Source: a virus
Strand: one strand, 5' to 3'
Length of the DNA stretch: 25,510 bases
Virus record (IMG/VR): IMGVR_UViG_3300030101_000346
Coordinates: 1 to 25,510 of that record
In this document: piece after piece, positions 2,862 through 8,141 of the stretch
Layout: every line of letters begins with the position of its first letter
Position numbering within the stretch: the stretch's first letter is position 1
Position numbers and translations under genes: made by a program
The notes under the pieces: generated by a model
What the model was told of the DNA's origin: nothing
What the model saw: only the letters and a program-made list of their open reading frames with translations
Database searches by the model: none

Positions 2862-3799
2862 TAAGCAGCCAAGCAGGACTTAACAGCAGACCGTATAGCT
2901 TCTTCACGCCGTACCTTGATAGCTAAGATATTAGCTTGTGCAGTCTTCTTGGTTGCAGGTGCGTGGGTACTCCAGTGAGTCAAAGCATTGTAAGCAGCCC
3001 AATGTGTAGACCCTAGATGCTTCTGCTCATCAGTGGTGTACTGAGTCCAGATCCATTTGAGTGCTTGGTTCCTGTATACTTCAGGCTCCTCAAACAACTG
3101 GTGAACTGTCATATCTTGCCTAGCTAAAACAAACTTACACTTAGTAGCCATTGCAAATAAGTTCAGAGCTTCTCTGTCTGTGATGCTATTCTCAGTCCAT
3201 CTCTTCCATCTAGCAGCCTCATTCTTGTATGACTCTAGTGCAGCAACTAGCTTGCGCTCTGCATGTTCAGGATTCATACGCAAGGTGTGCTTGGCTTTAT
3301 ACATGCTGAAGCTATCAATGAAAACCTGACCGTTTGTGCAGACCATACGAACCGCACCTATCTGTAACACTACAGCCCATGACCCATCAAAGGATGTACG
3401 TCCAGTTATCTGGAACTGACTCTCATCTCCGTTCCTAGTCTCGATAGTATACTCAGGTAGAGTCATCGTAATGAAACCACGCTCTCCTCCTTGAGTCATA
3501 TCAGACTTAACCTTAGCACCTCTACAATCAACACCAGAAGCTTTGAGTATGTTAATCATAGATCTGTATAGATCTTCATACTGTGCGCCCTTGAAGCTGT
3601 AGCTTCCTTTAACAATGTTAATCGGAGGAGATTGTTCTCCTTTAACAAACAAACCTCTTCTGCTAGGGTCAGTACATAGAGCACCATACTGATCTCTAAA
3701 CAAGATAGGTCTATCTTCTATCACTGTGTTAACAATGTCAGGTGGAGCTATCTCATCTAAAGGGTGAGATGAGATTGAGTTTAACGCATATACGTTCAT
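2861..3799 (-). CDS. DUF932-like phage/plasmid protein
   Basis: The 312-residue protein resembles the DUF932 (phage/plasmid-like, TIGR03299-type) family. It has a beta-rich N-terminal half, the characteristic 'RMVCTNGQ' segment at 151-158, a following 'SFSMYKAKHTLRMN' segment, and a long helical C-terminal half. Family members occur beside replication and recombination genes on phages and plasmids, but their biochemical role is not established. It is the longest gene of this accessory block and leads the set of four small coupled genes. The ATG is 5 bases after AAGGA. The upstream spacer (3800-3889) holds TGTTAC-type repeats and AT-rich sequence, so a local promoter is likely. Confidence 0.75.
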   Translation of the reverse strand: MNVYALNSISSHPLDEIAPPDIVNTVIEDRPILFRDQYGALCTDPSRRGLFVKGEQSPPINIVKGSYSFKGAQYEDLYRSMINILKASGVDCRGAKVKSDMTQGGERGFITMTLPEYTIETRNGDESQFQITGRTSFDGSWAVVLQIGAVRMVCTNGQVFIDSFSMYKAKHTLRMNPEHAERKLVAALESYKNEAARWKRWTENSITDREALNLFAMATKCKFVLARQDMTVHQLFEEPEVYRNQALKWIWTQYTTDEQKHLGSTHWAAYNALTHWSTHAPATKKTAQANILAIKVRREEAIRSAVKSCLAA

Positions 3800-5560: not shown

Positions 5561-5766
5561 TATTCCATACCTCCTTCTAGCTTATACTCCAGAGTATCTC
5601 CATAGAGAGCTTCCCTAACAGCTATGAAGTTCTGAGCCTTCTCCACCGCTGCCTTTATCCCATAGTAATCAATAGGGTAAGCATGTTCCATTCCCCATTG
5701 TTTACCTGAGTTCTTTCGCCTTTGCATCACTAGGATGTGAGGCCTTGCTTTTAATTTCACTGTCAT
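5560..5766 (-). CDS. Hypothetical basic phage protein, 68 aa
   Basis: Unrecognised. The N-terminal half is basic ('TVKLKARPHILVMQRRKNSG'), followed by a mixed helix ('GIKAAVEKAQNFIAVREAL'). No catalytic motif is visible. The ATG overlaps the upstream TGA as ATGA and its stop overlaps the next GTG start, placing it in a tightly coupled three-gene string. Confidence 0.75.
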   Translation of the reverse strand: MTVKLKARPHILVMQRRKNSGKQWGMEHAYPIDYYGIKAAVEKAQNFIAVREALYGDTLEYKLEGGME

Positions 5767-5948
5767 TCATTCTCCTCCATTTCCCAACCTTTAGCCTCGA
5801 ACTCTTCCTGAGATGGTTCAAAGTATGGTGCTTCCTCCATCGCTACTCTGGCCTTCTCTGCTGCTATCCTCACCGCATCTCGTCGCTTCGCTATCTGGCG
5901 AAAAGCACGAGTATTCCTTACCTGCCTTTTTAATTGCTTCCTAGTCAA
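5763..5948 (-). CDS. Small bipolar (basic then acidic) phage protein, 61 aa, TTG start
   Basis: Unrecognised. The N-terminal half is very basic ('RKQLKRQVRNTRAFRQIAKRR'), then an alanine-rich helix and an acidic C-terminus ('EEFEAKGWEMEENE'). The basic helix could bind nucleic acid. The start is a TTG at 5946-5948 with a strong AGGAGG four bases upstream. No ATG is available. It is the first gene downstream (leftward) of the tmRNA-like RNA and its hairpin. Confidence 0.72.
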   Translation of the reverse strand: MTRKQLKRQVRNTRAFRQIAKRRDAVRIAAEKARVAMEEAPYFEPSQEEFEAKGWEMEENE

Positions 5949-6029: not shown

Positions 6030-6259
6030 TGGGGGCGTGGGAAGGAGTCGAACCTTCCATCACTTCACTTGCACTAACGAAAGTTTTCCCTAAGTTAGAT
6101 GCGATCTACTTTAGGTTCAGTTACTTCTGCGATGATAATGCTGGTTATTTGTACCCATGACATAATTTTATTTTATGTCAATTATGGTACTTCTTTATTG
6201 TTATTACATTACCTCATGCATTAGTGTCGCATCAAATAAAATGATTTACCCAACACGCC
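6030..6259 (-). ncRNA. tmRNA-like RNA (tRNA-like domain with long H2 helix and encoded CCA)
   Basis: The gene-free stretch folds, on the minus strand, into the architecture of a transfer-messenger RNA. The 5' strand GGCGTG (6259-6254) pairs with CACGCC (6039-6034). A short D-loop-like TTGGGTAA follows. A long helix then replaces the anticodon stem: 6245-6233 pairs with 6071-6059 (13 pairs, 4 of them G-U) and 6226-6219 with 6079-6072 (8 pairs), with a six-base bulge. A perfect T arm (GAAGG, loop TTCGACT, CCTTC, 6057-6041) leads to the acceptor and encoded CCA (6032-6030). Inside the helix are a hairpin (6180-6173 with 6165-6158) and a candidate tag frame starting GCA at 6130 (A-E-V-T-E-P-K-V-D-R-I, stop TAA at 6097-6095) partly inside another hairpin (6115-6088). 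Oddities: about 230 nt, C at the discriminator, and C3-G70 instead of the alanine G3-U70 pair. A fossil or different charging is possible. Confidence 0.6.
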
Positions 6260-6302
6260 ATAATTCATTGTCTCTTATACATGCCCACTATCAGGTTAGT
6301 GT

Positions 6303-6788
6303 TTAAGCTTGTGCTTTGTTGTGCTCTAATTCAGAAGAGATAAGCGCGAAGAATCGCTCAATTTCGGTAGAAACTTTTGCGGTTCCTTCTTCTTTTCTTT
6401 TCTGAAACTTGTTGTTTAACTTCTTCAATTCAGCGATGTAGTCCATATCTGGAGTTACTTTACCGGCATTGTCGAATTCGTACCATAAAGAAGTAATTTC
6501 TTTTACTTCGATTGATCCTTTGCCCACTTTCTTAACTGAAAGTGTTGAAAGATCCTTGCTAGGAACAAACTTCACATTGGCATGAGCCTTTATAAAAGCT
6601 TTCAGAGTATTACCGCGAATGCTAGCCATACTCTTCACGCCATTAATAAGACGCTCTAACCGTGAAGTATCCCCATGCTCACCATAAGTAGAGATTGCAG
6701 ACTCGACCAACTTTTGGATGTTGTCTCTGTTAGTTCTCTCTGAACCTATGACGTTCTCAAGTAGCAGGTTAAAATATACTGTTTTCAT
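6303..6788 (-). CDS. Hypothetical phage protein, 161 aa
   Basis: Unrecognised. The protein is mostly alpha-helical and basic, without membrane segments. The N-terminal half is helical ('RDNIQKLVESAISTYGEHGD'), a central strand-like part ('VKFVPSKDLSTLSVKKVGKG') follows, and the C-terminal half has a heptad-like helix ('DYIAELKKLNNKFQKRKEEG'). A nucleic-acid-binding or replication-initiation role would fit its place as the first sizeable leftward gene beside the control region, but no family motif is seen. The ATG is preceded by AAGGGG with a 6-base spacing. The leader (6789-6980) is full of inverted repeats that could regulate it. Confidence 0.8.
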   Translation of the reverse strand: MKTVYFNLLLENVIGSERTNRDNIQKLVESAISTYGEHGDTSRLERLINGVKSMASIRGNTLKAFIKAHANVKFVPSKDLSTLSVKKVGKGSIEVKEITSLWYEFDNAGKVTPDMDYIAELKKLNNKFQKRKEEGTAKVSTEIERFFALISSELEHNKAQA

Positions 6789-6840
6789 AATATCCCCTTT
6801 TCAAAATGTTTTAAGAAGTGGGCATATATAAAAGACAAAA

Positions 6841-6975
6841 AACAATAGGAACGAGGAAATATTAAAACCAAAAAGGCTCTAATAAGACCCGGTTCCTATA
6901 TTGTTTTAATTTCGATATTTCTCAGCGCATTACTTTGCTGAGTTGGTCTTATTTGCAGAACGCAGTGACAGAGCC
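6841..6975 (-). promoter_or_regulatory. Interleaved inverted repeats in the leader of the 161-aa gene (attenuator-like)
   Basis: Several complementary pairs overlap here. GGCTCT (6875-6880) pairs with AGAGCC (6970-6975) and AATAAGACC (6881-6889) with GGTCTTATT (6945-6953). GAAATAT (6856-6862) pairs with ATATTTC (6915-6921) and TTAAAAC (6862-6868) with GTTTTAA (6903-6909). AACAATA+GGAAC (6841-6852) pairs with a copy carrying a 2-base insert (6892-6905). CTCAGC/GCTGAG forms a small hairpin (6921-6942). On the minus strand the first helix ends in five T (6874-6870), as in an intrinsic terminator, and the others cannot form at the same time. This looks like alternative or pseudoknotted RNA folds controlling leftward read-through. 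Confidence 0.5.
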
Positions 6976-7037
6976 TCCCTCGCCGTTAACTGGGTAGTCA
7001 ATAACCGTCGATAATTCGCGGCCATCCCGGTGCGCAC
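6930..7037 (-). CDS. Possible mini-gene, 35 aa, basic
   Basis: A 35-codon frame starts with GTG at 7037-7035, four bases after GAGG, and ends TAA at 6930. The product (R-T-G-M-A-A-N-Y-R-R-L-L-T-T-Q and on to S-A-K) is basic and helical. Base composition here is more GC-rich than the surroundings, as for the frame just upstream. It follows the 50-codon frame by 14 bases, as in a small operon. Such short open frames also arise by chance, and the opposite strand is open over part of the stretch. Confidence 0.38.
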   Translation of the reverse strand: MRTGMAANYRRLLTTQLTAREALSLRSANKTNSAK

Positions 7038-7051
7038 AATTCCTCTTTACG

Positions 7052-7204
7052 TCACCCATTCACCACACACGGATCACCTACTCGCGCATAAAGGAGCAGT
7101 ACCCCAACTAATCGCTGCGCTTTGGCCATGTGGCTAAGTTCGGCTGATATCAGAGCTTTTGACTCTGCGCTTTGTAGCGACTGAACACGAACTATAATAA
7201 TCAT
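7052..7204 (-). CDS. Possible small gene, 50 aa
   Basis: A 50-codon frame starts at ATG 7204-7202 and ends at TGA 7054-7052. The predicted product is helical with a protein-like pattern ('VQSLQSAESKALISAELSHM', then 'AKAQRLVGVLLLYARVGD'). It is the first leftward frame after the minus-strand sigma-54 promoter (7361-7377), and if expressed it would be an early leftward gene. No ribosome site precedes the ATG, and the internal ATG at codon 26 has none either, so confidence is limited. GC-rich local composition suggests a different history from its neighbours. Confidence 0.4.
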   Translation of the reverse strand: MIIIVRVQSLQSAESKALISAELSHMAKAQRLVGVLLLYARVGDPCVVNG

Positions 7205-7210
7205 ATAAAA

Positions 7211-7257
7211 CAAAATATCTACTATTATTTACGCAACAATAGATATTTTTGTGTTGC
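7211..7257. repeat. Overlapping inverted repeats upstream of the leftward mini-genes
   Basis: AAAATATCTA (7212-7221) is the exact inverse of TAGATATTTT (7240-7249). Between and beyond them GCAACA (7233-7238) pairs with TGTTGC (7252-7257), so the two helices interleave. It sits in the leader of the 50-aa frame. The function (operator, RNA structure or weak terminator) is not clear. Confidence 0.45.
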
Positions 7258-7275
7258 ATAAATGCAGCTAGTAGT

Positions 7276-7291
7276 TGGCATAATGTTTGCA
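7276..7291 (+). promoter_or_regulatory. Sigma-54-type (-24/-12) promoter candidate, rightward 1
   Basis: TGGCAT, five bases, TTGCA gives the GG and GC doublets of the sigma-54 consensus at the exact 10-base separation. Transcription would start near 7302, just where the TGTAACA/TGTTAC repeat lies. It is the weakest of the four because the base after TGGCAT is A rather than G. Confidence 0.5.
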
Positions 7292-7300
7292 ATAGGGAAA

Positions 7301-7316
7301 TGTAACAAAATGTTAC
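7301..7316. promoter_or_regulatory. GTAACA/TGTTAC inverted repeat
   Basis: GTAACA (7302-7307) and TGTTAC (7311-7316) are exact inverses around AAA. Identical hexamers occur at 7396-7412 and at 3856-3903. It is positioned between two rightward sigma-54-type promoters and is a candidate site for a phage or host regulator. Confidence 0.45.
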
Positions 7317-7337
7317 GAATTGGGAAATAAAATAAAC

Positions 7338-7353
7338 TGGCACGATACTTGCA
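7338..7353 (+). promoter_or_regulatory. Sigma-54-type (-24/-12) promoter candidate, rightward 2
   Basis: TGGCACGATACTTGCA matches the YTGGCAYGRNNNTTGCW consensus at every defined position, with GG and GC 10 bases apart. Predicted transcription start is about 7365, pointing toward the terminase genes. It is back to back with the leftward copy at 7361-7376. Confidence 0.6.
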
Positions 7354-7360
7354 ATTAATT

Positions 7361-7376
7361 AGCAATAATCATGCCA
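7361..7376 (-). promoter_or_regulatory. Sigma-54-type (-24/-12) promoter candidate, leftward
   Basis: On the minus strand TGGCATGATTATTGCT (7376-7361) matches the sigma-54 consensus fully, including the G after TGGCAT and 10-base GG-GC spacing. It would start transcripts near 7349 reading into the left arm, making the central region a divergent sigma-54 control point. Confidence 0.58.
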
Positions 7377-7395
7377 AGCCAAAAAAGAGGGAGAA

Positions 7396-7412
7396 TGTTA
7401 CAAAATGTTACA
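7396..7412. promoter_or_regulatory. Paired TGTTACA direct repeat, possible upstream activator site
   Basis: TGTTACA occurs twice (7396-7402 and 7406-7412) exactly one helical turn apart. It lies about 115 bases upstream of the third rightward sigma-54-type promoter, a normal distance for an enhancer-binding protein site. The activator is unknown. Confidence 0.42.
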
Positions 7413-7523
7413 GGAAAATGTCTTCGAGAACGGCCTGTAATGCGATCTCAGCATGTTTTTTTTGGGGTAAGGTATACACCGACTAAAAAAAGTTTTGAGC
7501 GTAGCGGAGTTTTAGAATTATTT

Positions 7524-7539
7524 TGGCATGGTTCTTGCA
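7524..7539 (+). promoter_or_regulatory. Sigma-54-type (-24/-12) promoter candidate, rightward 3
   Basis: TGGCATGGTTCTTGCA again fits the sigma-54 consensus with correct doublet spacing. Transcription would start around 7551, just before the AT-rich 25-bp repeats, and read rightward toward the packaging genes. Confidence 0.58.
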
Positions 7540-7559
7540 TGCTGGAAATGCTGGTAAGT

Positions 7560-7774
7560 TTTTGAAATATTTCAAATAGGTTCAAAAAGTGAGTGCAAAT
7601 TTTGAACATTTTAAATCTGTCACGAGATCGTAAATCTTGATCGTATTTTGAATATTTAAAATAAGTTCAAAAAATAGGTTCAATATTTGAACATATTTTT
7701 CGGATCTTTATTTTGAGTATTTAAAATAGGTTCAATAGTTGGGCTGGTTTTTTGAATCTTTAAAATACGTACAA
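7560..7774. repeat. Four dispersed AT-rich 25-bp repeats (iteron, origin or phage-promoter candidate)
   Basis: Four imperfect copies of a 25-base unit, beginning TTTTGAAT and ending AATAGGTTCAA in consensus, lie at about 7560-7585, 7646-7670, 7711-7735 and 7750-7774, all in the same direction. Each is bounded by TTGAA and TTCAA inverted ends. Extra half-sites make a perfect palindrome GTTCAA-TAT-TTGAAC at 7679-7693 and a GTTCA/TGAAC pair at about 7782-7796. No gene is present. AT-rich iterons fit a replication origin. Binding sites for a repressor or promoters for a phage RNA polymerase are alternatives. Confidence 0.6.
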
Positions 7775-7800
7775 TATTTGAGTTCAAAATGTGAACATAT

Positions 7801-7836
7801 CGCCAGCCGGGGCAGGAGGCCACCCCACCCCCTACC
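7801..7836. other. GC-rich island with C-tracts (G-rich on minus strand)
   Basis: A compact GC-rich block interrupts otherwise AT-rich DNA immediately after the repeats. The plus strand has GGGG at 7809-7812 and C4-C5 tracts at 7822-7832, so a hairpin or a two-tier G-quadruplex on the minus strand could form. The next 100 bases (7837-7948) show only a possible 14-codon frame (ATG 7908) and nothing firm. Confidence 0.35.
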
Positions 7837-7948
7837 ACATAAAAGGCAATCTCAAACATTTTAAACTATTTTTCAATTGTAAAGCTTTGGAGGGATGTAG
7901 TCAAGTATGTTAAATATTAAGAATGATTTAACGGAGATTAAGAAGGTA

Positions 7949-8026
7949 TGATACACTGTATCAGATCTTGTTTAATAAATAATTTATTATACAACGTAGT
8001 TTACGTATCAAACCGTATCATACGGT
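7949..8026. promoter_or_regulatory. GTATCA palindromes, operator candidate upstream of the terminase promoter
   Basis: A perfect 7-1-7 palindrome TGATACACTGTATCA lies at 7949-7963 and another, ACCGTATCATACGGT, at 8012-8026. A further GTATCA at 8005-8010 is one helical turn from the one at 8015-8020. Shared GTATCA half-sites suggest one dimeric DNA-binding protein. They lie about 70-140 bases upstream of the sigma-70 promoter and beside a TTGACA at 8028-8033. Confidence 0.5.
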
Positions 8027-8092
8027 ATTGACAATATTATAAGGCTCAGATGAGGATCTGTCAAGTCTTTTTCAAAGAAAATCAAAAAAAGC

Positions 8093-8121
8093 TTGACAAA
8101 TCTCAAATTCAACCCTATACT
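8093..8121 (+). promoter_or_regulatory. Sigma-70 promoter for the packaging/structural operon
   Basis: TTGACA at 8093-8098, a 17-base spacer and TATACT at 8116-8121 match the consensus almost perfectly. The start would be near 8128, 14 bases before the small-terminase ATG at 8142, leaving almost no leader. It probably serves the whole rightward gene string. Confidence 0.8.
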
Positions 8122-8141
8122 TAGTGTTATTTCATAGAGTT

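Follow-up and report, generated by a model that had tools for sequence, protein, structure and literature searches.

The 25,510-bp IMG/VR virus record IMGVR_UViG_3300030101_000346 (positions 1 to 25,510; hereafter the window) comes from an uncultured marine phage and carries on its minus strand a genuine 230-nt element with the ends of a tRNA. We rate at about even the chance that it is a tRNA-derived or tRNA-like, non-decoding phage RNA gene in which a structured cargo replaces the anticodon. This reading is supported by signal at the level of structure, by the slot that the element occupies, by its flanking motifs and by analogous tRNA-like RNAs in related phages. The preliminary description of the element, as a compact tmRNA-like RNA with a non-alanine acceptor, is partly supported: most of the architecture that it reported is present, but the tmRNA identity is not borne out. 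By terminase and portal, the nearest relatives of the window are the Pelagibacter phages HTVC115P, HTVC103P and HTVC104P, while HMO-2011 and the Roseobacter CRP phages are more distant.

Predicted fold of the 230-nt RNA

The element and its surroundings contain the following features.

6030–6259, minus strand: tRNA-like RNA, whole element, 230 nt (5′ end at 6259, 3′ end at 6030)
6254–6259, minus strand: acceptor 5′ strand GGCGUG, pairing with 6034–6039 (pair probabilities 0.98–1.0)
6246–6253, minus strand: D-arm replacement loop UUGGGUAA, 8 nt, without a D stem, unpaired in the MFE fold
6233–6245, minus strand: 13-nt 5′ strand of the long helix that replaces the anticodon stem (pair probabilities 0.89–0.97)
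6219–6226, minus strand: 5′ strand of the upper helix extension, uncertain (MFE fold)
6151–6190, minus strand: cargo hairpin GUACC(UGACAUAA..UUAUGUCA)GGUAC, in both the MFE and the centroid fold
6095–6130, minus strand: candidate 11-codon GCA frame AEVTEPKVDRI, proposed tag, at chance level
6072–6079, minus strand: 3′ strand of the upper helix extension, uncertain (MFE fold, pair probabilities)
6059–6071, minus strand: 3′ strand of the long helix, abutting the T stem (pair probabilities, shuffling)
6040–6058, minus strand: T arm with 6-bp stem GGAAGG/CCUUCC and loop UUCGACU (sequence, fold, descriptor)
6034–6039, minus strand: acceptor 3′ strand CACGCC (pair probabilities)
6033, minus strand: discriminator base C73 (sequence)
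6030–6032, minus strand: encoded CCA (sequence)
6303–6788, minus strand: 161-aa gene, phrog_14737/1448, no assigned function, marker of the slot in relatives
5763–5948, minus strand: 61-aa ORF downstream, positional counterpart of the genes after the slot in relatives
6268–6289, minus strand: 22-nt promoter-like motif AGTGGGCATGTATAAGAGACAA, upstream and separated from the 5′ end of the RNA by 8 nt
6817–6838, plus strand: second copy of the promoter-like motif, rightward, context only (counted in the window; compared with contig L011)
5978–6007, minus strand: downstream H-type pseudoknot motif CATC-CTAGGACAT-GATG-TAAAACT-GTCCTA with T5 behind it (variants in relatives)

The preliminary description had noted a 6-bp acceptor, a D-loop-like sequence, a T arm directly next to the helix, an encoded CCA with C as discriminator and a location in a gene-free stretch. 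All of these are found on the minus strand, which has acceptor GGCGTG/CACGCC, TTGGGTAA and T arm GGAAGG-TTCGACT-CCTTCC, and there is no ORF of at least 60 aa between 5949 and 6302. Of the 21-pair helix that was described, the 13 pairs beside the T arm are robust, whereas the 8 pairs past a 6-nt internal loop are weak (probability 0.24 for the outer pairs CACTAA/TTAGTG).

The fold as a whole has an energy of −62.5 kcal/mol, which none of 200 dinucleotide shuffles reached (z −4.24), and when the ends are fixed and only the middle is shuffled the signal persists (z −3.3, reached by 0 of 300). With the ends fixed, an uninterrupted 13-bp helix at the given position arose in 2 of 20,000 shuffles (P about 1e-4). 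The ends themselves were examined with a descriptor made up of a 5-bp T stem with a UUCRANN loop, an acceptor and CCA. It had no site in 10.2 Mb of Markov sequence, and in 1.9 Mb of phage DNA (both strands) it found only recognizable tRNAs, tRNA-like RNAs of this phage group and the window element. These controls show that the tRNA-like ends are not due to chance.

The RNA thus has the acceptor stem, the T arm with a UUCGANN loop and the CCA of a tRNA, while the D arm and the 7-nt anticodon loop are absent from the predicted fold; lacking both, it cannot decode. A cloverleaf with a D hairpin ATCA-TTTTATT-TGAT was considered and rejected, being 5.4 kcal/mol worse and having an ensemble probability of 0. 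A tRNA interrupted by a group I intron was also rejected: there is no Rfam match, and the intron proposed by ARAGORN is only 156 nt long. Known group I introns are longer than that.

Searches with known models returned nothing. Rfam scans of the window and, even at E ≤ 10, of a 301-base stretch around the element matched neither tmRNA nor tRNA nor group I intron models, and the default run of ARAGORN called neither a tRNA nor a tmRNA at the element. The intron and relaxed modes of ARAGORN gave several mutually inconsistent calls, which we do not count as evidence; its tmRNA call appears only at a relaxed threshold, alongside obviously false ones. The G3–U pair of tmRNAs is the identity element for AlaRS, and the earlier remark that C3–G70 stands in its place, so that charging by alanine is not predicted, holds. 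In tmRNAs, helix 1 has 7 bp with invariant G2–C and G3–U pairs, and the single-stranded D region spans 10–13 nt (PMC1168896). In the window RNA, helix 1 has 6 bp with C–G as its third pair, and the D region (UUGGGUAA) has 8 nt.

The proposed tag adds nothing to the tmRNA case. The GCA frame of 11 codons exists at 6130–6095 as described, but its role as a tag carries no evidential weight, because a GCA frame of 8–35 codons occurs in 72% of shuffles and a GCN frame in 93%. With the failed model searches, the missing G3–U70 pair and the short acceptor and D region, this tells against the tmRNA identity put forward earlier.

The slot behind the 161-aa gene in related phages

On the minus strand, the 161-aa gene is immediately followed by the window RNA. 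This gene has homologues in Zobellviridae, e.g. Pseudoalteromonas phage RIO-1 and Vibrio phages; in RIO-1 the homologue is the first gene inside the left terminal repeat. By this gene order, the element comes right after the gene that opens a leftward unit, probably an early one. The 230-nt sequence itself is a singleton, with no homologue in phages, IMG/VR or 84,980 genomes. The two contigs closest to the window by neighbouring genes (L011 and L115) stop short of the element. The link between the window RNA and the RNAs of relatives is one of position and architecture, not of sequence homology.

Three kinds of RNA occupy this slot in related contigs. (i) A normal tRNA-Tyr follows the 161-aa gene in L017/L091 and L118, and a tRNA-Cys is also among the tRNA genes of related contigs. 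(ii) An 82-nt tRNA-like RNA is present in L095, L160 and L156, with a predicted layout close to that of the window RNA: the acceptor has 6 bp, a GG-containing D-like loop has 8 nt, there is no D stem, and a helix abuts the 6-bp T arm. It ends with CCA in L095, whereas in L160 and L156 it has a T-stem mismatch and no CCA. The window RNA shares with these three the D-armless ends and the helix on a 6-bp T arm, a resemblance of architecture only, and a search of genomes for the core of the 82-nt type found none. (iii) A 112–115-nt RNA is present in L008 (5519–5634), L017 (3224–3339) and L095 (3100–3214). Its acceptor, D arm and T arm are normal; the anticodon loop, however, is 48 nt long instead of 7 and can form two crossing 7-bp helices. 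The Rfam tRNA model scores it at 44.8 bits in L017 and 45.6 bits in L095 (cut-off 29).

Every pair cell (108/108) is standard across the three sequences of the 112–115-nt type, two double compensatory changes are seen, and conservation of the insert equals that of the body; with just these three related sequences, the shuffle control (83/500) does not decide the matter. We inspected by hand whether splicing could restore an anticodon, and no possible 7-nt loop yields a consistent, usual one. The default run of ARAGORN leaves the tRNA with the 48-nt loop unreported in L008, L091 and L095. Where L008 carries this RNA, the site in L007 is empty and the sequence is otherwise continuous, which indicates that the slot RNAs are discrete, gene-sized units.

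Two minor observations concern the same region. In L099 (3443–3540), the intergenic slot holds a candidate hammerhead-like core (CUGAUGAG ... CGAAA) with an imperfect stem II. Before the RNA slot, relatives (L017 at about 3340–3400, L160 just upstream of 2202, L002 and L093) repeatedly show a G+C hairpin with a ACTATGKTTTCTAT-like sequence behind it.

Interpretation of the tRNA-like architecture

The window RNA resembles several known systems without matching any of them. With bacterial and phage tmRNAs (RF00023 and related models) it shares the acceptor, a stemless D loop, a long helix on the T arm, the CCA and an internal insert; it differs in dividing its acceptor and T-arm pairs as 6 + 6 instead of 7 + 5, in its C3–G70 pair and 8-nt D region, and in having neither a supported tag nor supported pseudoknots and no model match. 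Like phage tRNA genes (RF00005), including the tRNA-Tyr and tRNA-Cys of related contigs, it has the slot, T arm, acceptor and CCA, but it has no D arm or anticodon loop and contains a long insert. The D-armless mitochondrial tRNA-Ser(AGY) also combines a D-replacement loop with a lengthened anticodon stem beside the T arm, as the window RNA does; that tRNA decodes, whereas the window RNA, at three times its length, is without an anticodon. A CDS-less form of tmRNA in mycobacteriophage DS6A has been reported as a decoy-type RNA that inhibits tmRNA (PMC4131195; PMC11915505). Like this form, which we compared by its published description, and the plastid forms of ~65 nt, the window RNA has a tRNA-like domain without a credible tag and is a possible decoy. 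The DS6A and plastid forms are recognized by tmRNA homology, however, while the window RNA has neither G3–U70 nor a tmRNA D region, and its cargo measures about 170 nt. In the engineered tRNA scaffold of Ponchon and Dardel, acceptor and T arm are likewise kept and cargo replaces the anticodon stem-loop, and such tRNA bodies are processed and stable in Escherichia coli (PMC3753655). That scaffold is artificial and retains the D arm, which the window RNA does not have.

If the element is a tRNA-scaffold RNA, a minus-strand early transcript would start at or near the promoter-like motif (6289–6268). Host RNase P would then cut before G1, guided by the 12-bp stack of acceptor and T arm and by the CCA, and the 3′ end would be trimmed back to the encoded CCA. 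The product would be a stable, nuclease-resistant RNA in which the anticodon stem gives way to the 13-bp helix and the roughly 170 nt of structured RNA that it bears, and the scaffold would most likely present and stabilize this cargo during infection. The cargo would most probably bind a host factor or act as a decoy for it, e.g. for a tRNA-binding nuclease, EF-Tu/SmpB or similar. A decoy role of the cargo is the most plausible by analogy with the TLD-only RNA of DS6A that inhibits tmRNA, and with phage tRNAs for which a part in countering tRNA-cleaving defences has been proposed (PMC10264068); the decoy option of the preliminary description is possible. Several points count against the scaffold reading: the 230 nt have no homologue in the collections searched, the RNAs of relatives resemble it in architecture and not in sequence, C73 is an unusual discriminator, an atypical elbow is expected without a D arm, and the tRNA model does not recognize the RNA.

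A decaying captured tRNA gene, with an anticodon arm interrupted by insertions and function lost in the window copy, would account for the singleton sequence, the lost D arm, a U7–C66 mismatch if the acceptor is read as 7 bp, and the T-stem mismatch and missing CCA in L160 and L156. We find this doubtful: all 12 acceptor and T-arm pairs, the 13-bp helix and the CCA are intact, a promoter-like motif abuts the RNA, and the 112–115-nt relatives keep all helices through compensatory change together with a conserved insert. A decoy derived from tmRNA could instead titrate SmpB, EF-Tu or the A site of stalled ribosomes and so block host trans-translation. The D-armless, TLD-like layout with the helix directly on the T arm, the precedent of a phage TLD-only tmRNA that inhibits tmRNA (PMC4131195; PMC11915505) and the 82-nt relatives, which are too small for a tag, all agree with such a decoy, but it is unlikely given that the tmRNA D-loop consensus and G3–U70 are absent, helix 1 has 6 bp, the D region has 8 rather than 10–13 nt and no tmRNA model matches. 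A working compact tmRNA, charged with an amino acid other than alanine and tagging nascent chains, seems to us very unlikely, since the tag frame is at chance level, invariant tmRNA features are missing, neither ARAGORN nor Rfam finds the element and tag-free tRNA-like RNAs fill the slot in relatives; this is despite a layout and length near those of the smallest tmRNAs (250 nt in Synechococcus, 189 nt in mitochondria), a stop inside a hairpin in the GCA frame and the tmRNAs, mostly two-piece, of marine phages (PMC9004378).

The element could also be a processing signal in an early mRNA, where a cut by RNase P separates the message of the 161-aa gene from the downstream genes and the released RNA has no role. 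Its place between genes of one leftward unit, the 12-bp stack with CCA as a plausible RNase P substrate and the real tRNAs at the same position in relatives fit this idea. A minimal acceptor/T hairpin would be enough for that purpose, however, which leaves the long conserved cargo of relatives unexplained, and the 161-aa gene and the RNA have a promoter-like motif between them; we consider this explanation quite unlikely. Temperate phages carry tRNA 3′ ends as attP, so the element might be an attachment site copied from a host tRNA 3′ end rather than an RNA gene, or else a chance arrangement. The probability of either is remote: the 21-nt T-arm/acceptor string occurs in 0 of 84,980 genomes, an attachment site needs neither the matching 5′ acceptor strand nor the helix, no integrase family is found among the ten window proteins searched, and chance is excluded by the descriptor controls and helix shuffling.

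Extending the tRNA-scaffold reading to the whole group is tentative, and on balance we think it rather improbable. In marine podophages of this group, natural tRNA-scaffold RNAs may have arisen as a class: matured by the host and non-decoding, they would hold interchangeable structured cargo (a hairpin, a pseudoknot-like fold or a 170-nt domain) where a tRNA has its anticodon, occupy an early-region slot reserved for them, and serve to counter host defences or reprogramme the host. If this is real, these phages keep tRNA-shaped genes that are unable to decode, which bears on why phages carry tRNAs at all; the RNAs would be the natural equivalent of a scaffold used in the laboratory to stabilize RNA, and candidates for decoys of ribosome rescue or of defences that target tRNAs. 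Routine annotation overlooks such RNAs: ARAGORN at default settings found none of the unusual ones, even where the Rfam tRNA model gives 45 bits.

Promoter-like and pseudoknot motifs around the element

The 22-nt motif AGTGGGCATRTATAARAGACAA has exactly two copies in the window, against 0.00 expected. The copies diverge and flank the 161-aa gene; the minus-strand copy points into the RNA, and each copy is followed by a structured RNA. The second copy is kept in L011, whose terminase is identical to that of the window. Judged from sequence, the pair are candidate phage promoters.

Downstream of the RNA, the pseudoknot motif has a layout of ~30 nt (S1, C, S2, S1′, T(T)AAAACT, S2′, often with a T run next). 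About two dozen variants occur in related phages (at L003 6023, L008 5704, L088 2334, L099 3567 and others), with both stems altered yet pairing, and in relatives the motif stands after tRNA-like genes. It has no Rfam match in the loci scanned, and is possibly a terminator, a 3′-end protector or a regulatory element.

A hairpin lies directly 3′ of the rightward promoter-like motif, both in the window (6840–6904, plus strand) and in L011 (about 304–357). The stem sequences differ between the two and both pair (z −3.7 and −3.0), which suggests a conserved structured leader. From 6838 to 8124, before the terminase genes, the window has 1.3 kb without a convincing gene and with repeated AAATAGGTTCAA / TTTGAACAT units, possibly a region for replication or packaging close to the end of the genome.
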